Source: an uncultured Flavobacteriales bacterium (GTDB taxonomy: Bacteria > Bacteroidota > Bacteroidia > Flavobacteriales_D > Parvicellaceae). From it: 64,000 nt of DNA. Shown piece by piece: positions 418 through 25,102 of this stretch. The DNA lies in NCBI GenBank assembly GCA_913030835.1, contig CAJWDP010000013.1, positions 1 through 64,000 on the forward strand, written 5' to 3'. Below the pieces are notes generated by a model. The model worked only from the letters and a program-made list of their open reading frames with translations, was not told where the DNA came from and made no database searches. How positions within the stretch are numbered: the first letter of the stretch is position 1; every line of letters begins with the position of its first letter. A program made the position numbers and the translations under genes.

Positions 418-486
418 ATAAATGATTTCCCTTTAAACGACTATTTCATACTCATTATTGTCGGCAAGCTAAAATTGAAGAAATCA

Positions 487-553
487 TTTGGTTCGACAAT
501 ACAATCACCTCCTGTACAGATAAGAAAACCAGGCCTGTTGGCTTGGTTTTTTT
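487..553 (+). terminator. Terminator block A, similar to the block at 1096-1163
   Basis: The hairpin AACCAGG / CTTGGTT (527-548, one G-T pair) is followed by a T run. It has no intact plus-strand gene upstream: only the minus-strand 111-aa gene lies to its left. The segment from about 471 to 553 resembles the 3' end and terminator of the next gene, so it is probably the remnant of a lost or moved tandem gene copy. Confidence 0.55.
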
Positions 554-615
554 GTAAAATCCACTTTGGCATGAACGTTGTTAATTTTTTTGTTAAATCC
601 GTAAAACAAAGAATT

Positions 616-1092
616 ATGAAAAACCTGTTTACACTATTAGCTTTCACAATTTTATTAAACCCTGCTTTTTCTCAAACTGAAATGTCAAAGAAGGAAAGCC
701 TTGAAGATTTACATCTATTTTGCAAAACAGGTATGTCTGAAGAACTATGGATAGATTTTAATGAATGTGACCTGAATGAACTAACGCTGTATCAAGGTAA
801 TACTGCTTACTATTTCAAATTATCGAGTATTGAGTTTGTTGAAATCCAAAAAGTAGAAAAAAAGAAGAAAACCGTAAAAAAACTAGTTCTTACGACCTAT
901 CCTGCTGCAAAAATCAAATCTGAATCAGGCACCTCTAATTCTTCCCTTGTTGTAAACGGACTTGGTTTGGTTGACTCTGGTAATGGGATAGGCTATAAAA
1001 ATTCGATTAATATTTATGGTGATGCAAATGATCTTGAAGTAGTTAAAATTAAGCTTCAAAATTTGATTAATACGAACTCTAAATTGAACTAA
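616..1092 (+). CDS. Hypothetical secreted protein
   Basis: 158 aa from the ATG at 616. The open frame runs further upstream (to 475), but that would cross terminator block A, and the ATG at 616 is followed by a proper signal peptide (MKNLFTLLAFTILLNPAFSQ). The mature protein is about 138 aa, with a lysine-rich stretch (KVEKKKKTVKKL) near residue 80 and a Ser/Gly-rich middle. I recognise no family. The gene lies between two similar terminator blocks and ends in one of them, so it is probably monocistronic. Confidence 0.6.
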   Translation: MKNLFTLLAFTILLNPAFSQTEMSKKESLEDLHLFCKTGMSEELWIDFNECDLNELTLYQGNTAYYFKLSSIEFVEIQKVEKKKKTVKKLVLTTYPAAKIKSESGTSNSSLVVNGLGLVDSGNGIGYKNSINIYGDANDLEVVKIKLQNLINTNSKLN

Positions 1093-1095
1093 TAG

Positions 1096-1163
1096 TTTGG
1101 TCCGGCAATAAAATTCTTATGTGTACCTGCTGCCGTAAACTAGGCTATTCGACTTGGTTTTTT
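1096..1163 (+). terminator. Terminator block B after the secreted protein gene
   Basis: The hairpin AACTAGG / CTTGGTT (1138-1159, two G-T pairs) with a T run ends the gene at 616-1092. The 20 bases at its left end match block A at 16 positions, and the 3' arm plus T run is nearly the same as in A. Confidence 0.6.
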
Positions 1164-1244
1164 GTTTGATACTAATCCATGTAATCCTACGAATAAATGT
1201 TTCATTACAATTCATGATCCCATGCGGGCCAATTGATTAATCAA

Positions 1245-2309
1245 CTAATTTTTCAGAACTCCCTCATCAATCAAATTTTGAAAAGAATCCTCCATGGTTT
1301 CTTTCATTGGCCTGAATTTGATTCCCAATTCCTTTTTGATTTTAGAATTGTCAGCATTCCATGGAATATTTACATTGTTTCTGATAAACCGTCGCGTAAA
1401 CAATTTATTGGTAAGCGGTCCCAGGATCATTACCATCCATTTGGGGAGTGCTTTTCTTGGAAGCGGGTACTGATCTCCGTATTTCGGTAGAAGAACGGTT
1501 CCCATTTCCAAAAAATCAGTGTTGTGTGCGGAGGTTATGTATCTTCCACTCGCATCAGACGTAAACCCTGCTTTGAAATGAGCCTCGGCAACGTCTCGAA
1601 CATCTACGATACCTGCGCCTATTTTTGGAGCTCCCATTTTCATTTCTCCACCACCAAGCATCTTTAATATGTTGATACTTTCGGATGTGGCATGATGAAT
1701 ATTATACGCAGGGCCAAGAACCAAGCTCATATTGATTGCGACCAAATCCCATCGTTGCTGTTCATCGACCATTTCCCAAGCTTTTTTTTCAGCCAGGGTT
1801 TTGGAATAAGAGTAGGGCTGATAGTCCAATGATGCTGTTGTATTCCATATTTCTTCTGTTAGTTTTCCTCCAGGTGCATTTACGGAATCAATAGCATCTG
1901 TATAAATTGCTGCGCAGCTACTGGTAATAACGACTCTCTTCACAGATTCTGTCGCATTGGCAGAATTTAAGACATTTTCAGTCCCTTTTACAGCCGGATC
2001 TATTAGTTCTTTTTGGGCGTTTTTGTAGTTGCTGGTAAAAGGGGATGCCGTGTGATAAACCAGCTCGCAACCTTCCATGGCTTTTTGATAGGATTCCGGC
2101 TTGAGCAAGTCACTCTCAAAAAAGACAATACTCCCACCTGTTCCTTTGGCCATCTCTTTCAAGTGGTTAAATTTCTCCTCGTTTTCAATATTTCTCCCTG
2201 CGGCATGCACGGTTAATCCTTCATCCAGAAGTTTCTTCACTAGCCAGCTTGCCACGTATCCATTTGCTCCGGTTACTAAAATGGGTTTTGCCCTATCGAT
2301 TGATTTCAT
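1245..2309 (-). CDS. NAD(P)-dependent reductase, SDR (dihydroflavonol-4-reductase-like)
   Basis: 354 aa from the ATG at 2309; a start nine codons earlier (2336) is possible, but 2309 has the A-rich leader usual in this phylum and puts the nucleotide motif at the normal distance. The N-terminal Rossmann motif is TGANGYVAS. The catalytic Ser-Tyr-Lys set is present: SSCAA for the serine and YSYSKTLAEK for YxxxK. The extended SDR family with this pattern reduces aldehydes or ketones, or acts on flavonol- or sterol-type substrates; the true substrate cannot be read from sequence. A perfect 12-bp palindrome (TTGATTAATCAA, 1233-1244) touches the stop codon, without a T run. Confidence 0.85.
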   Translation of the reverse strand: MKSIDRAKPILVTGANGYVASWLVKKLLDEGLTVHAAGRNIENEEKFNHLKEMAKGTGGSIVFFESDLLKPESYQKAMEGCELVYHTASPFTSNYKNAQKELIDPAVKGTENVLNSANATESVKRVVITSSCAAIYTDAIDSVNAPGGKLTEEIWNTTASLDYQPYSYSKTLAEKKAWEMVDEQQRWDLVAINMSLVLGPAYNIHHATSESINILKMLGGGEMKMGAPKIGAGIVDVRDVAEAHFKAGFTSDASGRYITSAHNTDFLEMGTVLLPKYGDQYPLPRKALPKWMVMILGPLTNKLFTRRFIRNNVNIPWNADNSKIKKELGIKFRPMKETMEDSFQNLIDEGVLKN

Positions 2310-2435
2310 AGTGTTAGTTGTTTTATACGGAAACATTGAAAAGTAAGAAAATGTTGAACAGTGAGTTCTTATTGTGTTTATTTTTTACCATGTGTTAATT
2401 TTATTCCGTTCGGATCGATTGTGATCTGTTTTTTG

Positions 2436-2443
2436 CAAAAGTA
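2436..2443 (-). promoter_or_regulatory. Possible -7 box for the SDR reductase gene
   Basis: On the minus strand this reads TACTTTTG, an exact match to TAnnTTTG, 126 nt before the start at 2309. No clear -33 element was seen, so this is a candidate only. Confidence 0.35.
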
Positions 2444-2555
2444 TTTTGTGCTACATCACCTATTCGTTTGGGCAAAATAGACGATGTTCTCGTTGAAGGA
2501 ATAGTCGTCTGCAAAAAAGTGGTTGCTTAGGATGTAAATTGGAATGGATGTTGAT

Positions 2556-2563
2556 TAACTTCG
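2556..2563 (+). promoter_or_regulatory. -7-like box touching the GTG start of the AsmA-like gene
   Basis: TAACTTCG (7 of 8 to TAnnTTTG), followed by C. Only six bases separate it from the GTG at 2570, so a transcript started here would have almost no leader. No -33 element at normal spacing is obvious. Confidence 0.4.
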
Positions 2564-2569
2564 CGTGCG

Positions 2570-5500
2570 GTGAAAAGAAATCGATTTAAAACAAAGAAAT
2601 TCTGGTTCCGGTTTACGGGAATTATTTTGCTATTGCCGATACTGATTTTTGCCATTCTGTTATTGGTGATCTACTGGAAACAGGATGCCATTGTTCAGAG
2701 CTCAATTGAATCTATGAATGAGCATCACAAGGGGCTCCTCACGATTGGCGACATTCATCTGGCTCCATTCGAGAACTTCCCGGATATATCGATTAAAATC
2801 GACGATGTACATATCTACGAAGAGAAGGCAGCGGAACATCCAATTCTGGATGTGAGAGACATCTACATAGGATTCAATCTATGGGATATGATTAGCGGTA
2901 ATTATGATCTGCATTCACTTTTGGTGGAAGATGGGTTTTTCAATATTGTCATTCATGAAGATGGCAGTACCAATCTTCAAAATGCATTGGCAGCTCCAAA
3001 CGATCAGGTAGAGGAGGACCCGGTGCATTTTCACCTTCAACGAATCGAGCTAAGAAATCTGGACATTCACAAGCTGAACGAATCCAATATGATGGATGTA
3101 GAAACATACATTTATGAGGCGGATGGTGGATTCGAGACCAATGAAGATGAGATTGCCATGCACATCGATACCCGTTTCGAGCTCAATGTGATCGATAACG
3201 GTGATACCACATTCATCAAGCACAAACATTTCGAGTTCCACACGGATCTGGTGCTCAATCAGCTGTCTGGAATGATGGCCATTGCTCCTTCCGGGATAGT
3301 GATGGAACATGGTGATTTTGAAATAGAAGGAATCGTCGACACGAAGAACGACGTAAATATGGATGTTCAGATAAGAGGGACGAAACCGAACTTTGACATG
3401 CTTATTGCGTTTGCTCCGGAAGATATCATTCCATTACTGGAGCAATACAGAAATGCAGGTAAGATTTACTTCAACAGCACGATCAAAGGGCCAACCAGTG
3501 GTGGTCACATACCATTGATAGAGGCCAATTTTGGAGCCAGCGAGGCATTCCTTGAGAATACGGAAAAGAACCGCATTCTGAATGATATGGGGTTTGAAGG
3601 GCATTTTAGCAACGGAGAAAACCGCGACCTGACGACAATGGAATTTTCGATGAAGGACATTAGAGCAAAGCCGGAAAAAGGAAATATTATCGGTTCGGTT
3701 TTCGTAAAGAATTTTGAAGAGCCCGAGGTGGACATGTCATTTCAGGCGGATTTCGATCTGAATTTTGTGGCTGACTTTTTAAACCTGGATGAACTGGAAG
3801 TAGCAGAAGGAGAAGTGCATCTTGAAATGAAGTTCCATGATATCATTGATCTGGACAATCCTGAGCGAGCACTCAAAGATTTTAATCAGGCATACTTTTC
3901 GAAATTAGAAATAGATGACCTAAAGCTGAAATCAAAGGATCTGCCAATGCCAATAGAGCACCTGGATGTGAAGCTGGAAATGGATGGCAAGCAAGCTACT
4001 TTGGATAAGTTTGAAGCAATCATTTACAATTCGGATCTAAGTGTACAGGGCTATGTGTCCGACCTTCCAGCAATTGTGCACCACACGAATATTCCGGTAA
4101 AGACTCACTTGGAGGTAGAATCCAAAAATCTTGACCTTGCTGAATTGACGAAGTATGATCAGGGCGATAGCTCATCGATCGATGAGCAGATAAAAGATTT
4201 AAAGATTTCCTTTTCATTCCTTTCTACGGCTAAAGCATTTACTGAGTCTGAATATTTACCGATTGGTGAATTTTTTATTGATGATCTGCATGCACAGCTG
4301 ACGCATTACCCACACGAGCTTCACGATTTTCATGCAGATATTCTGATCGATGATCGGGATTTAACGATAAAAGATTTTACCGGTCACATTGACGTTTCTG
4401 ATTTTCATTTTAACGGGTTGATTCACGATTATGGCTTTTGGTTTAAGGATCAGCTGGATGGAGATGTAAATCTCGATATATCGCTGACCAGTGATGCCCT
4501 TCACTTAGAGGATGTATTTACCTACAAAGGTGAGAATTATGTTCCGGAGGAATACCGCCACGAAGAGTTCGATCAGCTGGCCTTACATGTAAATTCAGCG
4601 ATGCACTTTAAAAACCACGAGCTTCATTCTATCGACATGGATTTGGATCAGCTGAATTGCACGGTTAAACTTCACCCAATGCGATTCGAGAATTTCAATG
4701 GCAGATTCCATTACGAGGATGATCACATTGTAATTGAGAATTTACATGGCCAAATGGGGCGTTCTGTTTTTGATGTAGATATGAATTACTATTTGGGAGA
4801 AGACGATGCGATCAGGAAACGTGACAATCATCTTGGGTTTATTGCGAATTACATCGATTTCGATCAGCTATCGAACTACAATTTAGGCCCGGCCGATAAT
4901 CAGAAGCAACAGGATCGTTCATCTGGAAACAAGTTGGAAGATGTTGAGGAGCATGCAGAAGCATTCAATTTATACGAGCTGCCATTCACAGACATGACCT
5001 TTGATGTCGATATAGGTCACTTTATCTATCATCGTATTGACCTTCAGAAGATTCATGCCAGAATGCGGACTACGAAGAACCACTATTTGTATTTGGATAC
5101 ATTGAGTATGCGGGCTGCCGGAGGATCATTTAAAGGTTCCGGCTATTTTAATGGAAGTGACCCGAAACACATTTACCTGAAGCCGAATCTTAAAGTGAAA
5201 GACGCAAATATCGATAAGCTGATGTTTAAGTTTGAGAATTTTGGCCAGGATGAATTGGTTTCTGAAAATCTTCATGGCAAGCTTTCTGCTCACATTACCG
5301 GTAACATTCGTATGTATCCGGATATGGTGCCGGATCTTGATCAGTCCGAAGTTCATATGGATGTAGAAGTAACCAACGGTCGTCTGGATAATTATGAACC
5401 CATGCTGCTACTTTCCGATTACATGGGGGATAAGAATCTAAATTCCGTTCGGTTCGATACGCTGAAGAACCACATGGATATTACTAATGGAGTAATGACC

Positions 5501-12850: not shown

Positions 12851-13219
12851 ATGAAGTCGTTATTTATTTTTGCAGTTACTTGTTGTTTAGCAGGAGTAAA
12901 TGCACAGACATATGAAGCTTTTCAGCGTGAGGTCATCATAGAAAGTGAAGACGAATCCTCTGTTGAGGTTGACTTTTGCAAGTGGCACATTACATCCAGT
13001 CATGTGATTTGGGAAGCAGGCGATGGTCATAGTGCAGACATTCACAAGGTAATGGACTATCTTCAGTCAAAGGAAGTGTATGCCATAAACACATATGGTA
13101 ACGAGTTTACACTTGATATTGATCAGGTTGAAGGTACGGATCTGTTCTATCTGAAATATACACCTAAGCAGGATACATCGTGGCATGCTATATACCACTG
13201 TATAAAGCGTCCGGAATAA
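12851..13219 (+). CDS. Hypothetical small secreted protein
   Basis: 122 aa with a signal peptide (MKSLFIFAVTCCLAGVNAQ). The mature part of about 103 aa has two Trp (CKWHITSSHVIWE) and ends with two His-containing aromatic patches (SWHAIYHCIK). I recognise no family. Stands alone between the amidohydrolase and folE. Confidence 0.55.
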   Translation: MKSLFIFAVTCCLAGVNAQTYEAFQREVIIESEDESSVEVDFCKWHITSSHVIWEAGDGHSADIHKVMDYLQSKEVYAINTYGNEFTLDIDQVEGTDLFYLKYTPKQDTSWHAIYHCIKRPE

Positions 13220-13326
13220 CCCAATAGCTGGACTGACTTCAATTGATTTTTGTGTTTATTTACTAAAACAAAAGGGAATACATTTTGTTAGTTAAATATT
13301 GCATTCGGCAAAACACAAACTTTAAC

Positions 13327-13334
13327 TATATTTA
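13327..13334 (+). promoter_or_regulatory. -7-like box before folE
   Basis: TATATTTA (7 of 8), 12 nt before the folE ATG; probable start of the folE-cysS-peptidase transcript. Confidence 0.4.
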
Positions 13335-13346
13335 CACCTTCAAAAA

Positions 13347-14021
13347 ATGAGCGATTTGAAAGACATAGTGGCGATTGGAGAAGATCATGTGGCAACTTCC
13401 GCGGATACTCCATTAAGAGCAGACGCATTTGAATTATCGGATACGGAAAAGATCGAAATTATAGAAGATCATTTTAAGCAGATCATGATTACCTTGGGAC
13501 TAGATCTTAACGATGATAGTCTGTCCGGAACACCTAGACGCGTTGCAAGGATGTATGTAGAAGAAATTTTCTCAGGTTTAAATCCAAAAAATAAACCGGT
13601 AGTTTCCTTGTTTAAGAATGCGTACAAATACGATCAAATGCTCATCGAAAAAGATATAGAGGTTTACTCGGTTTGTGAACATCACTTTGTGCCGATCATT
13701 GGTCGGGCACATGTGGCCTATTTCGCACAGGATAATGTAATTGGCATTTCCAAGATCAACAGAATTGTGCGTCACTTTGCAAAACGACCCAGCGTTCAGG
13801 AAAGATTAAATGTTCAGATTGTCGAGGAGCTAAAGAATGCACTGAATACGGAAGATGTAGCATGCATCATTGATGCAAAGCACCTCTGTGTAAACTCCAG
13901 AGGAGTTGGAGATACCCATAGCTCTACAATAACCGGCCAGTTTGGAGGCAAGTTCAATGATCATGCGGTCAAGATGGAATTGCTGAAGCAAATTGGTATG
14001 GAGTCAAAAATCGACATCTGA
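13347..14021 (+). CDS. folE: GTP cyclohydrolase I
   Basis: 224 aa, usual family length. Converts GTP to 7,8-dihydroneopterin triphosphate, the first step of folate, tetrahydropterin and queuosine precursor synthesis. Zinc ligands are visible: Cys110 and His113 in [10 protein letters not shown], and Cys181 in [10 protein letters not shown]. The last motif is followed by STITGQFGG, close to the family's substrate-binding STxT segment. The N-terminal 35 residues are a poorly conserved extension. cysS starts 2 nt after the stop, so the two are co-transcribed. queD, which uses the product for queuosine, lies at 37 kb. Confidence 0.95.
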
Positions 14022-14023
14022 AT

Positions 14024-15523
14024 ATGGCGGACGAAATAGCCAACAAAATTTTCATCTACAATTCGCTTTCAGGAAAAAAGGAAGAATTCATTCCGATAAA
14101 CAAAAACCTCGTTGGAATGTATGTGTGTGGACCAACAGTCTACAGCAATGTACATTTAGGAAATTGTCGGACTTTTCTCACATTTGATATGGTGTATCGA
14201 TACCTGAAATACATTGGTTATCAGGTTCGGTATGTTAGAAATATTACCGATGCGGGTCATCTGGAAAATGATGCGGATGAAGGTGAAGATAAGATCGCAA
14301 AAAAGGCCCGGATCGAACAGCTCGAGCCGATGGAAATTGTGCAGGCCTACACGGTCGATTTCCACAACGTGATGAGAAGCTTCAACGCCTTGCCACCTTC
14401 GATAGAACCCACTGCGACCGGGCACATTATTGAGCAGATTGAGATGATCCGAACGATCATGGACAAAGGATTGGCATATGAAGTGAACGGATCTGTTTAC
14501 TTTGATGTAAAGAAATACTCAGAGAAAAATAATTACGGGGAGCTCTCCGGACGAAAATTGGATGAGCTAAGAGAAGGTACTAGAGAGTTGGACGGTCAAT
14601 CTGAGAAAAGAGACCCGATAGATTTTGCGCTTTGGAAAAAAGCTTCAGATCAGCACATTATGCGGTGGCAATCGCCTTGGAGCGATGGATTCCCGGGCTG
14701 GCACCTGGAATGCTCCGTAATGAGCTCTAAATACTTGGGAGATCAGTTCGATATTCATGGTGGAGGAATGGACTTGAAGTTTCCACATCACGAGTGCGAA
14801 ATTGCTCAAGGTAAAGCATCCAATGAGACTTCTCCGGTCAATTACTGGATGCATGGTAATATGCTTACGTTGAATGGAAAGAGAATGAGTAAATCAACCG
14901 GCAACACCTTATTGCCGCATGAGCTCTTTTCAGGAGAAAATGAATTGTTGGAAAAAGCATATCATCCAATGGTGGTCCGATTCTTCATGATGCAGGCTCA
15001 TTACAGGAGTACGCTAGATTTTTCCAGTGAGGCACTTTCCGCTTCTGAGAAAGGATACCAAAAACTGATGGCCGCGATAGAAACACTGGATAAACTTTCG
15101 TTCACTCAAAACGAATTCAATGATGCTGAGGATACCGCAATCGTGGGACTTTGTGAACAATGTTTTGCGTTTATGAATGATGACTTCAATACGCCGAGAA
15201 CAATTGCAACATTGTTTGAGCTGGTAAGCAAGATCAACGTCTATGCGAAAAAGGGTTCAATCGATAACATTTCGGAGAAAACGAGTAACTTGCTGTCCGA
15301 AACTTTTCGAGGTATGGTGTTTGATGTTCTAGGACTGAAAGACATTCAAGATCGAAAACAAGGTCCGCTTGATGGAGTGATGGATATTCTCATCAATTTG
15401 AGAAAAGAAGCAAAACTCAGCAGGAATTTTGAACTTTCGGACAAAATAAGAGATGAATTAAGTGCCGCAGGAATACAATTGAAAGACAGTCGAGACGGCA
15501 CTACTGATTACACAATAAACTAA
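14024..15523 (+). CDS. cysS: Cysteine--tRNA ligase
   Basis: 499 aa. Charges tRNA-Cys. Class I motifs are present: the HIGH equivalent HLGN at residues 44-47 (within [11 protein letters not shown]) and KMSKS as RMSKS at 287-291 ([11 protein letters not shown]). Zinc ligands fit CGP near residue 35, the Cys in HLECSVMSS, and PHHECEIAQ. The C-terminal DALR/anticodon part ends with [15 protein letters not shown], the standard tail. Starts 2 nt after folE; the C1 peptidase follows 4 nt after its stop, so the three form an operon ending at the terminator at 16784. Confidence 0.97.
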
Positions 15524-15527
15524 AGGG

Positions 15528-16763
15528 ATGTATAATAGAATAACAAAAACAATAGTGCTTGCTTTTTGCGTAGCTGCAGGAAGCACAACCGTTGCACAGG
15601 AAGAAGAACCATTAACTAACAAAAAAGGCAGTGAATACCGTTTTGAGGTAATTGCTGACAATGATGCTACTGAGGTGCAAAATCAAAACCGAACGGGAAC
15701 ATGCTGGAGCTTTTCTTCACTTTCCTTTTTTGAATCTGAGTTGCTTAGAATGAAAAAAGGAAAACACAATTTGTCGGAAATGTTCATTGTTCGTAACGCT
15801 TACATTGGAAAGGCAGAAAATTATCTGAGAATGTATGGGACGTTTAATTTCGGACAGGGTGGTGCGTTTCATGATATTCCATGGGTGATTGAACGATATG
15901 GTATTGTGCCTGAAGAAGTATATCAAGGATTGGAATACGGTTCTGAAACACATTCACACGACGAAATGGAACAAATGATGAAGGCCATGGTGGAAGTGTT
16001 GGCGAAAAGACCTCAGGGTGGAAAACTGACTCCTAATTGGAAAAAGGCCATAGCTGGAGTGGCAGACGCTTACCTAGGTGACCTTCCGGATGAAAATATG
16101 GAGGATTTTAAATTTACTTACAATGGTCAGGAATATACTCCCGGATCATTCTCAGAGTCTCTGGGTTGGAATATGGACGATTACATTTCCTTGACCTCGT
16201 ACACACATCATCCATTCTACAAGCCATTTGTACTGGAAGTTCAAGACAACTGGGCCATGAGAACAGGGTACAATCTTCCCATTGATGAATTGATGCAGGT
16301 AATGGAAGAATCTGTTAAAAATGGATACACGTTTGCATGGGGTGCAGATGTTTCTGAGAAAGGATTCTCGTTTAGAGATGCATTGGCCATTCTTCCTGAA
16401 GATGAATCAACGATTAAGGAAAAAGGAAAGGATGATAAGTTTTTCAATTCTGCAGGAGCGGAGAAAGTGTCAAACGCATTTATGGCTCCTGGCAAAGAGC
16501 GCATTGTAACACAAGAAGAAAGACAAGCTGCATTTGATTCTCAGGAAACCACAGACGATCATGGTATGCACATTACCGGAACATTACAAGATCAGAATGG
16601 TACCAAATATTTTATTGTAAAGAACTCGTGGGGTACAAAATACAACAACTGTGATGGATACTTTTATGCATCTTTCCCATATGCGAGATACAAAACCATG
16701 AATATTCTTATTCACAAAGACGGTATTCCAAAAGACATTAAAAAGAAATTAGGGATCAAATAA
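15528..16763 (+). CDS. Exported C1 peptidase, bleomycin hydrolase / aminopeptidase C type
   Basis: 411 aa. The catalytic triad is readable: Gln/Cys in QNQNRTGTCWSFSS, His in DDHGMHITGTL, Asn in IVKNSWGTKYN. Length and order fit the PepC/bleomycin hydrolase family, which forms hexameric barrels and trims N-terminal residues from peptides. Unlike cytosolic PepC it has an N-terminal signal peptide (ITKTIVLAFCVAAGSTTVAQ), so it should work in the periplasm. Third gene of the folE-cysS operon, 4 nt after cysS, and followed by a strong terminator. Confidence 0.85.
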   Translation: MYNRITKTIVLAFCVAAGSTTVAQEEEPLTNKKGSEYRFEVIADNDATEVQNQNRTGTCWSFSSLSFFESELLRMKKGKHNLSEMFIVRNAYIGKAENYLRMYGTFNFGQGGAFHDIPWVIERYGIVPEEVYQGLEYGSETHSHDEMEQMMKAMVEVLAKRPQGGKLTPNWKKAIAGVADAYLGDLPDENMEDFKFTYNGQEYTPGSFSESLGWNMDDYISLTSYTHHPFYKPFVLEVQDNWAMRTGYNLPIDELMQVMEESVKNGYTFAWGADVSEKGFSFRDALAILPEDESTIKEKGKDDKFFNSAGAEKVSNAFMAPGKERIVTQEERQAAFDSQETTDDHGMHITGTLQDQNGTKYFIVKNSWGTKYNNCDGYFYASFPYARYKTMNILIHKDGIPKDIKKKLGIK

Positions 16764-16783
16764 TTCAAAAAATTTGCGCAATT

Positions 16784-16819
16784 ACCCTGTTCGACCAGTG
16801 CTGTTGAACAGGGTTTTTT
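16784..16819 (+). terminator. Rho-independent terminator after the C1 peptidase gene
   Basis: ACCCTGTTC and GAACAGGGT form a 9-pair stem around an 11- to 12-nt loop and are followed by six T. Ends the folE-cysS-peptidase transcript. Confidence 0.9.
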
Positions 16820-16862
16820 GTTCAACGGAAGTCAATTATTCTTGCTAACTTTCCCAACCCAA

Positions 16863-17180
16863 ATGAGAAAGCTCCTAAATACAATTTTTATCCTGCCGAT
16901 CCGGTTGTATCAGTGGATAATTTCTCCTTTGTTCCCCGGCACATGTCGTCACGAACCAACCTGCTCCCAGTATGCGGTCGAGGCGATCAATGAATGGGGA
17001 CCTTTACGTGGCTTGTGGCTCGGCGTAAAACGGTTGGTAAAGTGTCATCCTTGGGGTACACATGGGCCGGATCCGGTGCCAAAAAAAAGAAGATCGGAAA
17101 GTAGTAGTGACGAGCTAAATAAATCCGCTTCAACGTTTTCTCATCAAGTCAAATCAATCTGTTGCTATGCTGAAAATTGA
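16863..17180 (+). CDS. yidD: Membrane protein insertion efficiency factor YidD
   Basis: 105 aa from the ATG at 16863; the longer open frame begins inside the preceding terminator and is unlikely. The family signature is clear: PIRLYQWIISPLFPG, then TCRHEPTCSQYAVEAI, then GLWLGVKRLVKCHPWG. YidD assists insertion of membrane proteins with YidC/Sec. The C-terminus carries about 35 extra polar residues beyond the usual GPDPVP end. Overlaps the next gene by 14 nt. TAACTTTC (16846-16853) is a -7-like box 9 nt before the ATG. Confidence 0.92.
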   Translation: MRKLLNTIFILPIRLYQWIISPLFPGTCRHEPTCSQYAVEAINEWGPLRGLWLGVKRLVKCHPWGTHGPDPVPKKRRSESSSDELNKSASTFSHQVKSICCYAEN

Positions 17181-18177
17181 CATGCATACACATCTCATGC
17201 CTGATCGTATGCCTCGATGGGCAGACAAATTTGGTTACGGAGGTTTCATTCATCTTGATCATCACAGAAAAGGTTGGGCACGGATGATGCAGGATAGTAA
17301 GTTCTTTAGAGAGATCAATGAAAACTGTTGGGACCCGGAGGTGCGCATCAACGAATATTTAGAATTCGATACACAGGTCCAGGTAATCTGCACCATCCCG
17401 GTCTTATTTGCCTATTGGGCCAAGCCCAAAGATTGTTTGGAAATTTCCGAATTCCTGAACGACCATATAGCTGAAATCGTTCAGAAATATCCGAAGCAAT
17501 ACGTTGGATTAGGGACGGTGCCGATGCAGGATGCAGAACTGGCAGTACAAGAACTACATAGAATAAAAGAAATTGGATTGGTGGGTATACAGATTGGATC
17601 CAATGTGAACAACAAAAACCTGAACGAAGCCGAATTCTTTTCCATTTTCGAAACCTGCTCGAAGCTAGGTTTGGCTGTGATGGTGCATCCATGGAATATG
17701 ATGGGTAAAAAACACATGGAGCGATATTGGTTACCATGGCTTGTCGGTATGCCCGCAGAAACATCAAGAGCAATGTGTTCCATGATTTTTGGCGGGGTTC
17801 TCGAGCGACTGCCTGGTTTAAGGGTAAACTTTGTCCATTCCGGAGGCGCCTTTCTTCCAACGATTGGAAGGGTTGAACACGGATTCAACTGCAGGCCTGA
17901 CCTGGTGGCAATTGACAACCCCGTTAATCCCAGAGAGTATCTTGGGAAGTTTTGGGTCGATTGCATAACACACGATCCATTGATGTTGGAATATGTGCTA
18001 AAATTGCAGGGGTCGAAACGGGTTACGTTGGGAACAGATTATCCCTTTCCGTTAGGTGACCTCGAGATTGGAAAGTTCATTACAGAAATGGAGCTGGACG
18101 AATCGATAATAGAAGATATATTCTGCAACGCTACGTTAGAATGGCTCAACTTAACTAAGGAACAGTTCTTGCAATAA
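17167..18177 (+). CDS. Aminocarboxymuconate-semialdehyde decarboxylase-like amidohydrolase
   Basis: 336 aa, the same length as animal ACMSD. Segment-by-segment it matches the ACMSD pattern as I remember it: HTH metal site at residues 7-9 (DMHTHLMP), FGYGGFIHLDHHRKG, ENCWDPEVRI, VPVLFAYWAKP-type segment, VGLGTVPMQ, VMVHPWNM, YWLPWLVGMPAET, HSGGAFLPTIGR and LGTDYPFPLG with the metal Asp. The enzyme removes CO2 from 2-amino-3-carboxymuconate-6-semialdehyde in tryptophan (kynurenine) or aromatic breakdown, diverting it from quinolinate. No other kynurenine gene is in the window. It overlaps yidD and precedes the M1 peptidase by 11 nt. Confidence 0.88.
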   Translation: MLKIDMHTHLMPDRMPRWADKFGYGGFIHLDHHRKGWARMMQDSKFFREINENCWDPEVRINEYLEFDTQVQVICTIPVLFAYWAKPKDCLEISEFLNDHIAEIVQKYPKQYVGLGTVPMQDAELAVQELHRIKEIGLVGIQIGSNVNNKNLNEAEFFSIFETCSKLGLAVMVHPWNMMGKKHMERYWLPWLVGMPAETSRAMCSMIFGGVLERLPGLRVNFVHSGGAFLPTIGRVEHGFNCRPDLVAIDNPVNPREYLGKFWVDCITHDPLMLEYVLKLQGSKRVTLGTDYPFPLGDLEIGKFITEMELDESIIEDIFCNATLEWLNLTKEQFLQ

Positions 18178-18188
18178 CCGCTTAAAAA

Positions 18189-20084
18189 ATGATTATGCTA
18201 AAATTCTTCAGTACGGGTATACTTGTTCTTACACTGCTCACTACCATCGCTCAAAGGCCTCCTGTAAATCTTCCAACTCAGGAACAGCCGGGATTGGTTT
18301 ATCAGGGTTACTGGCAGCAACGAATCCAGTACCAAATGGATATCACGATGGACGACAAGAATCATCAATTTACGGGTAAACAACGAATCAGGTACACGAA
18401 CAATTCACCGGACCGATTGGACATCGTATTTTTCCATCTTTATTACAATGCCTTTCAGCCGAATTCGATGATGGATATCAGGTCGAGAACAATTTCCGAT
18501 CCGGATGGACGGGTGACAGACAGAATTTTTCATCTGAACAGCAACGAAATAGGATATCACAAAATCAATTCACTTTCGTACGAGGGAAATCCGGTAGATT
18601 TTAAGATTGAGGGAACAATAATGGAAGTTCCTTTACCCGTGGGAATTGAACCAAATACCACGGTAGAATTTGAAATGGAATTTGAAAGTCAGATTCCTGT
18701 TCAGATAAGAAGAACGGGAAGATTTAATCAGGAAGGGGTGGATTATTCAATGACTCAGTGGTACCCGAAAATGGCCGAGTACGACAAAGAAGGCTGGCAC
18801 GCAAATCCCTATGTAGGTCGTGAATTTCATGGAGTCTGGGGAGATTTTGACGTGACCATACACATGAATAAAAAATACGTAATTGGAGGAACAGGGGTGC
18901 TACAAAACCCAGAAAGCATCGGTCACGGTTATCTCCCTGAAGGTAATAAAGTAAAGCTACCCGAAGGAGAGATGCTGCACTGGCATTTTAAAGCGGAAAA
19001 TGTACACGATTTTGCATGGGCCGCTGACCCTGACTTTCTGCACGATGTGGTAAGAATGGAAAACGGAACGCGTATTCATTTCTTTTACCAACCTGATACG
19101 TCAGCTCAAAACTGGAAAGATCTTCAGCCGTACGCAGTGAAGAGTTTTGAATATGTGAATAAACATTTTGGAGTTTATCCTTACCCTCAGTATTCCATTA
19201 TTCAGGGGGGAGATGGTGGAATGGAATACCCCATGTGTACACTCATTACTTCTCATGGGTCTTTTGGTGGCTTGGTGAGTGTTACCGTTCACGAAAGTAT
19301 TCACAGCTGGTTTCAAGGTATGCTGGCAACCAATGAGTCAAAATACCCTTGGATGGACGAGGGGTTCACTACGTATGCGCAGTCGATGACGTTGGACCAT
19401 CTCTACGATAAGAATGCGGTCAATCCGGTAGCCAATTCATATATGGGATACGCCATGCTGGCGCGCTCAAAAGATCAGGAACCGCTTACAACACATGCAG
19501 ATCATTATAAGAAAAATCGCACGTACGGTATATCTGTTTATTCAAAAGGCGCTGTGTTTCTTCATCAACTGAGCTACATCGTAGGACAGGAAGCTTTTCA
19601 AAAAGGAATGCTCGATTATTACAAAACATGGAGGTTCAAGCATCCTACACCGGATGATTTTAAGCGAGTAATGGAACGGGCATCTGGGTTGGAGCTGGAT
19701 TGGTATATGGAGCAGTTCATTGGAACCATCAATGCGGTAGATTATGCGATAGGGTCTGTTGAGAAGCAGGGGAAAGAAACAAAGGTCGTATTGGAAAAAA
19801 AGGGAGATATGCCGATGCCACTGGATATTAAAGTAACACTTACAGACGGCACCATAGAATGGCATTACATACCGCTTAGGATTATGAGAGGGGAAAAAGG
19901 ACCAGACCCGGAAAGTTTCGATGTAGTTCACAAAGACTGGGGCTGGGCTTATCCGAGCTATGAACTTATCGTCGGAACACCAATGAACAAGATCAAAAAG
20001 ATTGAGATCGATCCAAGCCGAAGAATGGCAGATATATATCCACTCAACAATGTTTATCCAAAACAAGAAAACAATAACAATTAG
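18189..20084 (+). CDS. Exported M1 family metallopeptidase
   Basis: 631 aa (a second ATG lies two codons in). Signal peptide at the N-terminus (residues about 3-20, ending TTIAQ). The zinc site is HESIH at 368-372 with the third ligand Glu391 in WMDEGFT, the correct HExxH-x18-E spacing. The exopeptidase GGMEYP-like motif is GDGGMEYPM, just before. Gluzincin aminopeptidases of this kind cut N-terminal residues from peptides; the signal puts it in the periplasm or outside. It follows the ACMSD-like gene by 11 nt and precedes lgt by 6 nt. Confidence 0.92.
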   Translation: MIMLKFFSTGILVLTLLTTIAQRPPVNLPTQEQPGLVYQGYWQQRIQYQMDITMDDKNHQFTGKQRIRYTNNSPDRLDIVFFHLYYNAFQPNSMMDIRSRTISDPDGRVTDRIFHLNSNEIGYHKINSLSYEGNPVDFKIEGTIMEVPLPVGIEPNTTVEFEMEFESQIPVQIRRTGRFNQEGVDYSMTQWYPKMAEYDKEGWHANPYVGREFHGVWGDFDVTIHMNKKYVIGGTGVLQNPESIGHGYLPEGNKVKLPEGEMLHWHFKAENVHDFAWAADPDFLHDVVRMENGTRIHFFYQPDTSAQNWKDLQPYAVKSFEYVNKHFGVYPYPQYSIIQGGDGGMEYPMCTLITSHGSFGGLVSVTVHESIHSWFQGMLATNESKYPWMDEGFTTYAQSMTLDHLYDKNAVNPVANSYMGYAMLARSKDQEPLTTHADHYKKNRTYGISVYSKGAVFLHQLSYIVGQEAFQKGMLDYYKTWRFKHPTPDDFKRVMERASGLELDWYMEQFIGTINAVDYAIGSVEKQGKETKVVLEKKGDMPMPLDIKVTLTDGTIEWHYIPLRIMRGEKGPDPESFDVVHKDWGWAYPSYELIVGTPMNKIKKIEIDPSRRMADIYPLNNVYPKQENNNN

Positions 20085-20090
20085 ATTTTC

Positions 20091-21002
20091 ATGATAATGA
20101 ACTTATTAGCAATTGATTGGACGGTCGATCCCGCGATATTTTCCCCGGGAGGGTTTGAAATAAGGTGGTACGGTCTTCTATTTGCGGTTTCATTTTTCTT
20201 GGGGTATCAGCTTGTTCAGAAAATGTTCAAAAGGGAGGGCGAGGATCTAAAACGGCTTGACAAGCTATTGGTCTATGTTCTCATCGCTACTGTGGTAGGT
20301 GCCCGATTGGGACACGTATTTTTTTACGATTGGGATTCGTATAAGGACGACCTTTGGAGCATTTTGAACATTAGAGAAGGAGGGTTGGCAAGTCACGGTG
20401 CTGCAATTACCATCGTACTTTCTTTAATTATTTTTTCAAAACGAATTTTAAAGGATAAACCGTTATTATGGATTTTTGATCGTGTCGCACCGGCAATCGC
20501 CCTAGCAGCGTTTTTTATCCGAATAGGAAACTTGTTCAACCATGAGATCATGGGAAAAGTAACCAGCGGATGGGGGTTTAGGTTTTTACGTTGGGATGGG
20601 AGACCGCCTTATGATCAGGTAGATATGTCCACTTTACCCGTTCGACACCCTGCACAATTGTATGAAGCCATTTGTTACTTGATCATATTTGGTCTGCTAA
20701 TGTGGCTTTATTACAAAAGGAAGGCCTATACTCGGCAAGGGTTAATCATGGGAACCTTTTTTACTCTGTTGTTCACTGCTCGTTTTTTTATAGAATTCGT
20801 AAAGGAGCACCAAGCGGAATCGATTGATACAAACGCAGTATTAAATATGGGCCAGTACCTGTCAATTCCATGTATCCTGTTTGGACTATTCTTTGTTTTT
20901 AGGTCGTTCAAAAATCAGGTGCCCGATCCAGTAGCAGAATATCAAAAACGTTTAGCTAATGAAGAAGGTTCGACCGTGAATAAATCCGAAACAACCCAAT
21001 GA
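20091..21002 (+). CDS. lgt: Prolipoprotein diacylglyceryl transferase
   Basis: 303 aa (a second in-frame ATG at 20097 is equally possible). Moves diacylglyceryl from phosphatidylglycerol to the lipobox cysteine of prolipoproteins in the inner membrane. Family motifs: IRWYGLLFAVSF, the conserved RIGNLFNHEIMG segment, and RHPAQLYEAICY. About seven hydrophobic spans. The last four bases overlap the start of the next gene, which itself encodes a lipoprotein, so coupled translation is likely. Confidence 0.95.
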   Translation: MIMNLLAIDWTVDPAIFSPGGFEIRWYGLLFAVSFFLGYQLVQKMFKREGEDLKRLDKLLVYVLIATVVGARLGHVFFYDWDSYKDDLWSILNIREGGLASHGAAITIVLSLIIFSKRILKDKPLLWIFDRVAPAIALAAFFIRIGNLFNHEIMGKVTSGWGFRFLRWDGRPPYDQVDMSTLPVRHPAQLYEAICYLIIFGLLMWLYYKRKAYTRQGLIMGTFFTLLFTARFFIEFVKEHQAESIDTNAVLNMGQYLSIPCILFGLFFVFRSFKNQVPDPVAEYQKRLANEEGSTVNKSETTQ

Positions 21003-22528
21003 AAAACACGTTATTTATTCTTTCTGTATTGGCAATTTCCTGTAGCTCGGGTCCAGATACCGACACTGTTTCTGCCCAGTCGGCAGATACTGTGCAAGTG
21101 CAGCTGCAGGAAACGTTGATTCCGGAATCGCAAGAGGTTGCTGCTCTGTTTGAATCAATTGATACCAATTTCAACTCAATGGATTTGCTGCTCCCCGAGG
21201 GATTCAAATACGATGTACTGTTCACCGAAGCCAGAGATAAAGTAACCCGAGCAGATGGAATGAAATTCCCGGCGAAAGGAAACCATGATCTGTGCGTTTA
21301 TGTTCCGATTGACGGATCAAGTACTCATGGTTACCTCTATGTTGGACACGAGGATCGATATGTAAATGCTGACCTTGGCGATGGTGGAGGAGGTACTGTA
21401 TTTGAAGTAATTCGAGATTCAACAGGGTGGAAAACGGTAGGAGATTTCAAGCACGTTGACTTTAGTGATGTCAGAGATACTCATCGTAATTGTGGTGGCA
21501 CGATCACACCCTGGGGTACGATCTTAAGTGCTGAGGAAACCTATCCGTCATCCAATGCTGACATATCCTTCAATGGCACCTATATATCGGATCTGTCGCC
21601 TATAAATGGCCGCGATGCATATACCAACTTTGGTTGGATGGTTGAAATTGATCCTGTAACCCAAAAACCACTTCACAAATTGTATTCTATGGGACGGTTC
21701 ATGCATGAAGATGCGGAATGCATGCCTGATCAAAAAACCGTTTATTTAACAGACGATTACCCTGTTGCAGTTTTCTTCAAGTTCGTTGCAGATGTAGAGG
21801 GTGATTATACCAGCGGCCAGCTATACGCATACAGGCAAAGTGAAGATGGAGAATCGGGAGACTGGCTGGAGATCCCGAGGGATACCAACTCCCTTATCCG
21901 ATGCAGAGATATTGCGTTGAACAATGGCGCCACATTGTTTCAGCGGCACGAATGGTTGGATGAAGCAGATGGCAAACTCTATATTGCGGAAACCGGCAAC
22001 GTTCAATTCGACTGGAATATGCGTATTAATGGTGGTGCCGTTCCAGCAAAACATTTGTGGGATTCATTCCATTTAGGCGGGAATATTTTTTCCGATGTGC
22101 ATGGTAGAATCCTAGAGTTTGATCCGGTTACAAATAAAATGAGAAGCTATTTGGAGGGAGGCGTGAATCCAGAGGATTCTGCTACCGTACTATCTAATCC
22201 TGATGGCAATTGTATCCAGAAATTCAATGGTACAAACTATTTGGTAATCAATGAGGACATCGATTGGTATGACCTGGGAAGAGTTCCAAAACATGCGGAA
22301 TTGGCTCAGCGAATGGTCAATGAAGTGTATTTTTTACCGTTGAACAAAGAAAATCCCCAATTGAGCGATTTGCGTAGATTTGCCATTGGCCCGAAAGGAA
22401 GCGAAACGACGGGAACGTACTTTACCCCGGATGGAAGTACGATGTTTTTAAATATTCAACATCCGTATCCATTCAATAAGCTTCCATTTAACCGATCGAC
22501 AACAGTAGCAATAACTGGATTTAAATGA
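20999..22528 (+). CDS. PhoX-like (DUF839) lipoprotein
   Basis: 509 aa. Begins with a lipoprotein signal (MKNTLFILSVLAISC, lipobox ISCS), and its ATG overlaps the lgt stop (ATGA). The body has the DUF839/PhoX layout: an N-terminal PEGFKYDVLFTEAR segment, YLYVGHEDR, NCGGTITPWGTILSAEE near residue 165, and a C-terminal FTPDGSTMFLNIQHP. PhoX enzymes are Ca/Fe-dependent alkaline phosphatases with a beta-propeller, and GTxLSxEE is one of their metal-site motifs, so phosphatase activity is plausible but unproven. The ABC ATPase gene overlaps its stop by 4 nt. Confidence 0.82.
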   Translation: MKNTLFILSVLAISCSSGPDTDTVSAQSADTVQVQLQETLIPESQEVAALFESIDTNFNSMDLLLPEGFKYDVLFTEARDKVTRADGMKFPAKGNHDLCVYVPIDGSSTHGYLYVGHEDRYVNADLGDGGGGTVFEVIRDSTGWKTVGDFKHVDFSDVRDTHRNCGGTITPWGTILSAEETYPSSNADISFNGTYISDLSPINGRDAYTNFGWMVEIDPVTQKPLHKLYSMGRFMHEDAECMPDQKTVYLTDDYPVAVFFKFVADVEGDYTSGQLYAYRQSEDGESGDWLEIPRDTNSLIRCRDIALNNGATLFQRHEWLDEADGKLYIAETGNVQFDWNMRINGGAVPAKHLWDSFHLGGNIFSDVHGRILEFDPVTNKMRSYLEGGVNPEDSATVLSNPDGNCIQKFNGTNYLVINEDIDWYDLGRVPKHAELAQRMVNEVYFLPLNKENPQLSDLRRFAIGPKGSETTGTYFTPDGSTMFLNIQHPYPFNKLPFNRSTTVAITGFK

Positions 22529-23151
22529 TTCAAATCGAAGACATATCATTTTCTTACAAAGAACAGGAATCGATGCGTTTTCCTGATTTCTCATTTGACC
22601 AAGGAGAGCATGCGTTGGTTCTAGGGAGTTCAGGCTGCGGAAAAACGACCCTGCTTCATTTGATTGCAGGCTTGCTCTCACCCCAAAGTGGAAGTATTCG
22701 GGTAGCAGACAAAGACATTACAGCACTAAATGGAGGTACAATGGATGCCTTCCGAGGACAAAACATTGGAGTTATTTTTCAAAAACCACATTTTGTTAAG
22801 TCGCTGACGGTGGTAGAAAATGTTGTCCTGGCTCAGAGCCTTGGTGGAGGAACTTCAAGTAGAGTAGAGGCGGAATCTTTTTTACAAAAGCTGGGACTTG
22901 AAGATAAAATTAACCGAAGGGTGACTGATCTTAGTGAAGGAGAAAAGCAACGAGTGTCGATTGCCAGAGCACTGGTAAACAAACCCAAACTTATTTTGGC
23001 GGATGAACCTACTTCGGCATTAGACGATGAAAATTGCAAATCGGTTGTGCAGCTGTTAAAACAAGTTTCGGATGAAGTAGGTTCTACTTTGTTGATCGTT
23101 ACGCATGATCACCGATTGAAAGAGCATTTCAGCAAAACAGTTGAGTTATGA
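22525..23151 (+). CDS. ABC transporter ATP-binding protein, LolD/MacB class
   Basis: 208 aa. Walker A GSSGCGKTT (residues 34-42), Q-loop around Gln86 (IFQKPHF), ABC signature LSEGE (136-140), Walker B LILADEP (157-162), and the switch His in VTHDH. The size and the downstream FtsX-type permease place it in the LolD/MacB group, which drives extraction or export rather than classical import. It overlaps the PhoX-like gene upstream and the permease gene downstream by 4 nt each, so subunits should be made at matched levels. Confidence 0.93.
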   Translation: MIQIEDISFSYKEQESMRFPDFSFDQGEHALVLGSSGCGKTTLLHLIAGLLSPQSGSIRVADKDITALNGGTMDAFRGQNIGVIFQKPHFVKSLTVVENVVLAQSLGGGTSSRVEAESFLQKLGLEDKINRRVTDLSEGEKQRVSIARALVNKPKLILADEPTSALDDENCKSVVQLLKQVSDEVGSTLLIVTHDHRLKEHFSKTVEL

Positions 23152-24647
23152 ATTCGTTAAAGCTAAGCTGGAAAAATATAAAATACAGACCTTGGAGATC
23201 GGGATTAGCTGTGTTATTGATGGCCTCCGGATTGAGCATCGTGATCGTGCTGATACTAACTCAGGGACAGATCGACGAGAAGTTTAGGAACAATCTTGGT
23301 GATATTGATCTGGTGGTTGGCGCTAAGGGATCTCCGCTTCAACTGGTATTGAGCAGTGTCTACCATATTGACAATCCGACGGGTAATATTCATCAGGACA
23401 GCTGTTCTTTTGTCTCCAATCATCCATTTGTAGCCAGCTCGATTCCAATTTGTATAGGAGATAATTTCAATACGTACAGGATTGTAGGGACTTCATTGGA
23501 TTACATAGAAATGTATGGAGGTAAACTAGCTTCCGGCAAGTACTGGGAAGAGCCCATGCAGGTAGTGGTAGGAGCAAATGTTTTCGAGAAGTTTCCAAAT
23601 AAGCTAAAATTGGGCAGTCGAATTACCGGAGGACATGGAATTGGAAACGATCTGTTGGATGAGCATGATCATGCCCACGAATCATCTCCGTACACAGTAG
23701 TAGGTATTCTGGAGCCAACGGGGAAAGTGTTGGATAACCTAGTTCTTTGTGACTACCGAAGCTCATGGATTGTGCATGCCGGACATGGAGAAGAAGCTAG
23801 CTTTGACCTAAAAACAAAAGAGGAAGTTGAGAACAAGGTTGAACCGGATTCGCTCACCATTGTCCAAGATACGGGAGAAATTACTCAAAATGTCCAAACT
23901 GTAATAGAGGACAGTGCAGAAGAGAATGAGTTAGAGGATCACGGTCACGATCATCACGGTCACGATCATCACGGTCACGATCATCACGGTCATGATCATC
24001 ACGGTCACGATGATCACGGTCATGATCATCACGGTCATGATCATCACGGTCATCATGAAAAACCGCTAAATATCGACAGTGTTTTAACTACAATTCCGGA
24101 AAGCAAAAAAGAGATAACCGCGTTATTGGTAAAATACAAGAACCAACGGGGGCAATTGTTTATACCCAATGCCGTAAATCGGAATTCGTCTCTAATCGCA
24201 GCAGACCCCGATATCGAAAGAGACCGAATGCTGAAATTGGTAGACTCGGGTATACAAACCGCTAATCTGATGGGGTATTTTGTGCTGATCATTTCTGCAA
24301 TCAGCGTTTTTATCGCATTGTATAGCTCGCTCAAAGACAGGGGCTATGAAATAGCATTGGTCCGAGTTCAGGGAGCGACCAGATTGAAAGTGTTTGGAAT
24401 GATTTTAAGTGAGGGATTGCTGCTTTCTTTATTAGGATATATCTTTGCGTTGCTGATTAGTCATGTTGGTATGTGGGTTGTTTCAGAAATCCTTGAGAAC
24501 AACTACCATTATGCCTTTAACGCCTGGGTTTTTTCTAGAATGGAAGGTTATTTGTTGGTGGTTGCAGTAGTTATTGGCCTGATTTCTGCTCTGATTCCTG
24601 CATTGAAAGCTTACGGAACTGACATTTCATCAACCTTAAGTAAATAA
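23148..24647 (+). CDS. FtsX/MacB-type ABC permease with a His-rich periplasmic loop
   Basis: 499 aa. One N-terminal membrane span (about residues 15-40) is followed by a large external domain and three C-terminal spans (about 375-395, 415-450, 465-490), the MacB/LolC/FtsX plan. What is unusual is residues 264-303: 40 residues holding 23 His in DHHGH units, plus a smaller EHDHAHE patch at 172-178. Both lie between the first and second span, hence outside the cytoplasm. Such stretches bind Zn, Ni, Co or Cu in metal transporters and metallochaperones. With the ATPase encoded just before it and a DUF3299-like protein just after, a metal-linked transport role is inferred. The core family is solid; the substrate is not known. 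Confidence 0.88.
   Translation: MNSLKLSWKNIKYRPWRSGLAVLLMASGLSIVIVLILTQGQIDEKFRNNLGDIDLVVGAKGSPLQLVLSSVYHIDNPTGNIHQDSCSFVSNHPFVASSIPICIGDNFNTYRIVGTSLDYIEMYGGKLASGKYWEEPMQVVVGANVFEKFPNKLKLGSRITGGHGIGNDLLDEHDHAHESSPYTVVGILEPTGKVLDNLVLCDYRSSWIVHAGHGEEASFDLKTKEEVENKVEPDSLTIVQDTGEITQNVQTVIEDSAEENELEDHGHDHHGHDHHGHDHHGHDHHGHDDHGHDHHGHDHHGHHEKPLNIDSVLTTIPESKKEITALLVKYKNQRGQLFIPNAVNRNSSLIAADPDIERDRMLKLVDSGIQTANLMGYFVLIISAISVFIALYSSLKDRGYEIALVRVQGATRLKVFGMILSEGLLLSLLGYIFALLISHVGMWVVSEILENNYHYAFNAWVFSRMEGYLLVVAVVIGLISALIPALKAYGTDISSTLSK
23937..24056 (+). repeat. In-frame 15-nt tandem repeat encoding DHHGH units
   Basis: About eight copies of GATCATCACGGTCAC with scattered third-position changes (CAC/CAT) and one GAT for CAT. 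All copies keep the reading frame. Such a repeat can change copy number by slippage without breaking the permease. Confidence 0.95.
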
Positions 24648-24649
24648 GT

Positions 24650-25102
24650 ATGATTGGAAAATTAAAAATACTACCCATGCTGGCCCTGTTCGCAGTTCTA
24701 TTCTCGTTTACTGCGTCTGAGCCGATCAAGATTACATGGGAAATGCTAAAGGACGTAAATTTTTCAGACAAATGGTCCGATGAATTTCAAGCCTATTATG
24801 CCGTTCCTACATTTGGAAACAACATTAAGCGATTTGATGGTAAGGAAATCCAGATTCGAGGCTATATCATCCCAATAGATATTGTAGAAGGATATTATGT
24901 GCTTTCCGCGAATCCATATAGCCAATGTTTCTTTTGCGGACAAGCGGGTCCGGAGTCGGTAATGGAAGTGCAGATGAAAAAGGAGTATACCGATCTTAGA
25001 ATTGATCAAATTATCACCTACAAAGGGAAGCTCAGATTAAATAGAGACGACATTTACCAGCTAAACTATATTCTGGAGGATGCAGAGATCGTAAGTCGCT
25101 AA
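24650..25102 (+). CDS. DUF3299-like small exported protein
   Basis: 150 aa with an N-terminal hydrophobic signal (PMLALFAVLFSFTAS). The core reads ITWEMLKDV, then a DGKEIQIRGYIIPID strand pair, then a two-cysteine patch (QCFFCGQAGPES), then a beta-rich end. The W-x-x-L followed by GKxVxIxGYxxPxD plan is that of DUF3299 proteins, which in Vibrio accompany ABC genes and a His-rich protein in the Zur-regulated zrg cluster (from memory). Starts 2 nt after the permease stop. Its stop overlaps the convergent waaA gene by 4 nt. The family call is tentative; the operon link is firm. Confidence 0.65.
   Translation: MIGKLKILPMLALFAVLFSFTASEPIKITWEMLKDVNFSDKWSDEFQAYYAVPTFGNNIKRFDGKEIQIRGYIIPIDIVEGYYVLSANPYSQCFFCGQAGPESVMEVQMKKEYTDLRIDQIITYKGKLRLNRDDIYQLNYILEDAEIVSR

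Follow-up and report, generated by a model that had tools for sequence, protein, structure and literature searches.

Three adjoining genes on the forward strand of a 64,000-nt stretch of DNA from an uncultured Flavobacteriales bacterium (contig CAJWDP010000013.1, positions 1 to 64,000, the whole of which is called the window here) encode an ABC ATPase, an FtsX/MacB-type permease and an exported two-cysteine protein (open reading frames within 22525-25102). The ATPase gene (22525..23151, +; PF00005, E=1.2e-37) is LolD/MacB/FtsE-like and the counterpart of ZrgC/PA4064. It overlaps by 4 nt the gene of a 499-aa permease (23148..24647, +), the counterpart of ZrgB/PA4065, which is followed after a 2-nt gap by the gene of a 150-aa exported protein (24650..25102, +), assigned to the DUF3299 family by profile and predicted fold and the counterpart of ZrgE/PA4066. 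These open reading frames bear out the three-gene unit, with its overlap and gap, that had been described in a first-pass annotation of the DNA. Upstream lie lgt, encoding prolipoprotein diacylglyceryl transferase (20091..21002, +; PF01790, E=2.2e-65), and a gene for a PhoX-like lipoprotein (20999..22528, +; PF05787, E=2.7e-44); lgt and the PhoX-like gene overlap by 4 nt, as do the PhoX-like gene and the ATPase start, and all belong to the same gene run. In the window's lineage the ABC unit is the tail of this lgt-containing run. The run is long and co-directional (12851-25102) and includes folE, cysS, yidD and genes for a C1-type peptidase, an amidohydrolase and an M1 peptidase in addition to lgt and the PhoX-like gene; names given upstream of the M1 peptidase are sequence readings only.

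The best NCBIfam matches of the ATPase are DevA, LolD and FtsE, every one under its cut-off, and the permease passes the Pfam cut-offs for both MacB_PCD (33.3 bits versus 27) and FtsX (51.2 bits versus 25.5). A structure prediction of the permease had been named beforehand as a check. The AlphaFold model (mean pLDDT 84.7, core mostly above 90) has the four-TM MacB layout, with TM1 at residues 15-50, then a periplasmic domain, and TM2-4 after approximately residue 354. Foldseek ranks MacB (5gko, E=5e-14) first, ahead of further MacB entries, LolCDE and related structures. Pfam, NCBIfam and Foldseek thus agree with the earlier assignment of a LolD/MacB-type ATPase and an FtsX-type permease.

The small protein scores 14.2 bits against PF11736 (DUF3299), under the gathering cut-off of 22, yet this cut-off is narrowly passed by two orthologues from the same position, and a weak DUF3299 match is found in 17 of 20 relatives. 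Alignment with the proteobacterial DUF3299 profile by hhalign gave 96.1% (E=3e-9). Searches of PDB sequences by phmmer with the small protein and by hmmsearch with the A1 profile yielded no significant DUF3299 structure; 4hsp appeared at E=0.98 in one of the two and was absent from the other. The DUF3299 kinship, which had been suggested from the sequence, was settled when the Foldseek search with the predicted fold ranked 4hsp (PA4066, DUF3299) first, at E=8.1e-5. The protein carries a conserved CFFC motif (Cys93 and Cys96; 24926..24937, +), in which, across 43 homologues, Cys93 is invariant and Cys96 is present in 90% or more. Doubled DUF3299-like genes occur 3' of the permease in four loci (L055, L086, L150 and L179).

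A disordered loop of the permease (residues 216-299; 23793..24044, +; pLDDT < 50) begins a few residues past the invariant His210 and in the AlphaFold model sits between TM1 and TM2, i.e., on the periplasmic side. The DHHGH repeat block (residues 264-303; 23937..24056, +) accounts for 23 of the 34 histidines of the permease, and this is the maximum in any 40 residues of the protein; by the same count the next-highest density among the other window ORFs of at least 150 aa is 7. In the DNA the block consists of 7.7 tandem copies of a 15-bp unit (23938-24052, 95% match); both the histidine count and the tandem-repeat search confirm the DHHGH stretch noticed in the first pass. Relatives of the same genus have loops at the same site that are His-rich and non-repetitive; this comparison indicates that an older His-rich loop acquired the perfect DHHGH repeat recently, through expansion of a 15-bp unit.

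Among 111 permeases (those outside four proteobacterial comparators), 98 have at least four histidines in the loop at one common insertion site, with a median of 10 and a histidine fraction of 0.18 in the loop versus 0.02 in the rest of the protein. The expectation that the loop would recur in orthologues of the same context therefore held for these 98 and failed for 13 homologues with fewer than four loop histidines, which means that the loop is not required everywhere. The permease of L055 carries a long insertion at the loop site that is not His-rich. We regard it as extremely improbable that the loop is a low-complexity expansion without function. The perfect 15-bp tandem repeat would agree with such an origin, as would the facts that the loop sequence itself is not conserved and that some orthologues are nearly without a loop, but histidine enrichment at one site in 98 of 111 diverged permeases, with no conservation of the repeat, argues against it.

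Three histidines outside the loop are conserved across 115 permease sequences. His163 in an HG motif (23634..23636, +) and His210 in a WxxH motif just before the loop (23775..23777, +) are invariant (115/115), and His177, which lies in the EHDHAHE patch reported earlier and confirmed at residues 172-178 (23661..23681, +), is present in 110 of 115. His163 is also found in the Pseudomonas-, Phaeobacter- and Rhizobium-type permeases; the permeases of Pseudomonas, Phaeobacter, Catenovulum and Aeromonas have the same conserved histidines without the His-rich loop, and the conserved histidines are also present in the Rhizobium-type proteins. This pattern suggests that His163, His177 and His210 may form a metal site, and we infer that the loop could act as a metal antenna.

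Permease homologues (E <= 0.001) were found in 46 of 60 genomes searched, a count that includes a few other FtsX permeases whose match is limited to the C-terminus. Of 148 complete Bacteroidota genomes drawn evenly, 26 had the permease at E <= 1e-30. Linkage of the three genes in relatives, another check named beforehand, is kept: the order ATPase-permease-DUF3299 persists through the bacterium's family, in other families of its order and across Bacteroidota. A contig scan gave 80 loci, mostly from Bacteroidota and a few from Proteobacteria; the ATPase lies directly upstream of the permease in 67/76 loci and DUF3299 directly downstream in 61/76, in a sample that is not neutral because the loci were picked with Bacteroidota-derived patterns. 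Several Saprospirales-type loci have other small proteins instead of an adjacent DUF3299 (the permease is without one in L083, L085, L095, L123, L124, L129 and others), and in one family member (L065, G019:C70) several stop codons break the permease.

The neighbours of the unit differ between the family and the wider sample. Upstream of the unit lgt is found in most family members, and linkage of the PhoX-like gene is limited to several of the family's genera; among the sampled loci from outside the family, neither gene is a regular neighbour. In 15 of 79 loci the unit has CobW, Fur-type and/or MerC genes at a distance of no more than approximately 5 kb. The lgt linkage could be taken as a sign of lipoprotein biogenesis, with the unit acting as a LolCDE-like transporter of lipoproteins or other envelope components and the His-rich loop incidental, and LolCDE is indeed among the structural neighbours of the permease. 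We consider this very unlikely: in the sampled loci the lgt linkage is confined to the family, the closest context matches are zinc clusters, and the histidine conservation and the CobW/Fur/MerC linkage speak against it.

The PhoX-like gene had been proposed as a possible member of the same unit. It overlaps the ATPase gene in the window and is linked in some genera; it was rejected as a core member because only part of a single family shows the linkage. In six alphaproteobacterial plasmid loci (L176-L178 and L180-L182) a related unit lies 3' of an alkaline phosphatase gene, of PhoA type (PF00245) in the three loci tested, and includes a small DUF3299-like protein detected with the A1 profile and permeases with the same histidine motifs. 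This link is a lead for a role in metallation, in which the machine would supply metal to secreted metalloenzymes such as periplasmic phosphatases (PhoX-like in the window, PhoA in Alphaproteobacteria) or similar enzymes. Both the overlap and linkage of the PhoX-like gene and the placement of the alphaproteobacterial DUF3299-like/ATPase/permease unit favor such a role. We nevertheless judge it unlikely, as the phosphatase link is missing in most Bacteroidota loci, PhoX is not known to be a zinc enzyme and the alphaproteobacterial sample consists of plasmids only.

A metal link of the family is indicated by the CobW, Fur and MerC neighbours and also by Fur/Zur-like sites in other Bacteroidota. 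The palindrome TGCAA-N5-TTGCA occurs exactly in 5 of 48 ATPase upstream regions (0.02 in base shuffles) and with at most one mismatch in 10 of 48 (0.29 in base shuffles), figures that are somewhat optimistic because these 48 regions also served to derive the motif. The palindrome is found again next to the CobW, Fur and MerC genes, as well as in the genome to which the window belongs, and we offer the TGCAAYNNNRTTGCA sites as a candidate Bacteroidota Zur box. Taken together, the evidence that the family is linked to zinc is good.

The window's genome yielded one Fur gene in the PF01475 search; a second, weaker Fur-type gene was reached only via the palindrome. In the region containing the latter (L172, G000:C10:65500-71500, positions 482-3182) an exact TGCAACATTGTTGCA palindrome lies between the divergent genes of a TonB-dependent receptor and the Fur-type protein, and this weak-scoring gene is likely the genome's Zur, with the palindrome as its own site. 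Another exact copy (L174, G000:C60:6200-12200, at approximately 3027) lies at the start of an alpha (eukaryotic-type) carbonic anhydrase gene (PF00194), possibly a Zur target. A Zur regulon comprising the Fur-type gene/TonB receptor site and the carbonic anhydrase site is plausible in this genome. The window operon itself has no palindrome site above chance, nor do the operons of family relatives. Direct Zur control of the window operon is not supported and was rejected on this evidence, since exact copies of the palindrome are present elsewhere in the same genome and not at the operon; of the earlier proposal, the metal link is supported and the regulatory part is not. No match to ZnuA (PF01297) was found in the window's genome and ZIP-type transporter genes are present; CobW is absent, so the CobW link of other loci does not apply to this genome.

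We propose that the unit is probably the Bacteroidota version of the Zrg/PA4063-4066-type ABC machine, with the His-rich element in cis. The evidence presented here for a Zrg-type machine is homology, conserved order, fold, histidine conservation and neighborhood. The kinship with the Vibrio zrg cluster, suggested in the first pass, is supported by the common ATPase-permease-DUF3299 order, which is also seen in records of Pseudomonas aeruginosa (DUF2796-ATPase-permease-DUF3299) and Phaeobacter (a Fur gene, then DUF2796-ATPase-permease-DUF3299). ZrgA (PF10986) was not found over its cut-off in 60 genomes, the window's own included, nor beside any of 79 loci, and the loop recurs at one site in homologues, in agreement with the earlier view that the His-rich part is built into the permease. 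ZrgA-linked permeases and two gammaproteobacterial ones form their own clade (support 1.0), which would fit one branch that relies on a separate His-rich protein and another that has the loop within the permease.

In the mechanism we envisage, ATPase and permease would form a MacB-like dimer, in which four-TM subunits are not expected to provide a metal pore and ATP-driven movement would instead be passed to the periplasmic domain. Periplasmic zinc, or a divalent metal like it, would be collected by the flexible loop, an in-cis counterpart of the in-trans ZrgA of Proteobacteria, and handed to the site made up of the three near-invariant histidines (163, 177 and 210). The DUF3299 partner, an OB-fold protein that carries the CFFC motif, might dock on the periplasmic domain as a relay for metal or cargo, and the net effect would be that periplasmic zinc is mobilized or trafficked when zinc is scarce. 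The fuller proposal, a Bacteroidota-wide ATP-driven periplasmic zinc machine that passes metal from the His loop to the three-His site, mobilizes it for or metallates periplasmic metalloenzymes and replaces ZrgA and ZnuABC where these are absent, is put forward tentatively, with low confidence.

Zur controls both the zrg and the PA4063-4066 operons, which act under zinc limitation; what their machines carry, and in which direction, is disputed (PMC9817125, PMC9820375, PMC11481552). The P. aeruginosa pump has been read as an exporter of pyochelin/cobalt (PMC11481552), which makes a metal complex a possible cargo. A MacB-type pump that expels a metallophore or excess metal complex, with the loop stripping or gating the metal, would accord with the MacB fold of the permease and with the accumulation of pyochelin and Co in PA4065 mutants (PMC11481552). 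We hold this to be rather doubtful: no metallophore-synthesis gene recurs among the annotated neighbor clusters, the core unit is without a MacA-like adaptor, and the Vibrio data have been read as zinc acquisition (PMC9817125, PMC9820375).

For zinc-starvation machines whose direction and mechanism are disputed, a Zrg-type unit with an in-cis His element, three near-invariant histidines and a DUF3299 partner narrows the requirements of the core machine, and the loop or a single histidine of the permease provides a testable handle on it. The unit is also a candidate zinc system for Bacteroidota without detectable ZnuA, as in the window's genome.

Compared with known systems, the unit shares its fold and four-TM layout with MacB and LolCDE (type VII ABC, mechanotransmission) and differs from them in having a separate ATPase gene, a DUF3299 partner and conserved histidines, and no adaptor or outer-membrane channel. 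It resembles PA4063-PA4066 of P. aeruginosa in the MacB-like pair PA4064/PA4065 and in DUF3299 protein PA4066, whose structure (4hsp) the small protein's predicted fold matches; unlike the window unit, Pseudomonas has a separate ZrgA-type protein, PA4063, and a permease without a His-rich loop that falls in a clade separate from the window type (support 1.0). With Vibrio ZrgABCDE, in which zrgE encodes DUF3299, zrgA encodes DUF2796 and a His-rich metal-binding element is part of the system (PMC9817125, PMC9820375), it has in common the ATPase, the four-TM permease with a large periplasmic domain and the DUF3299 protein in the same order, whereas the window unit is without ZrgA, carries the His-rich element in the permease and has no Zur box that we could find. 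Searches of the open-access literature turned up no account of the Bacteroidota form; the Zrg-type machine is already known, and the proposed Bacteroidota version with a putative metal-binding element in the permease is a new form of it.
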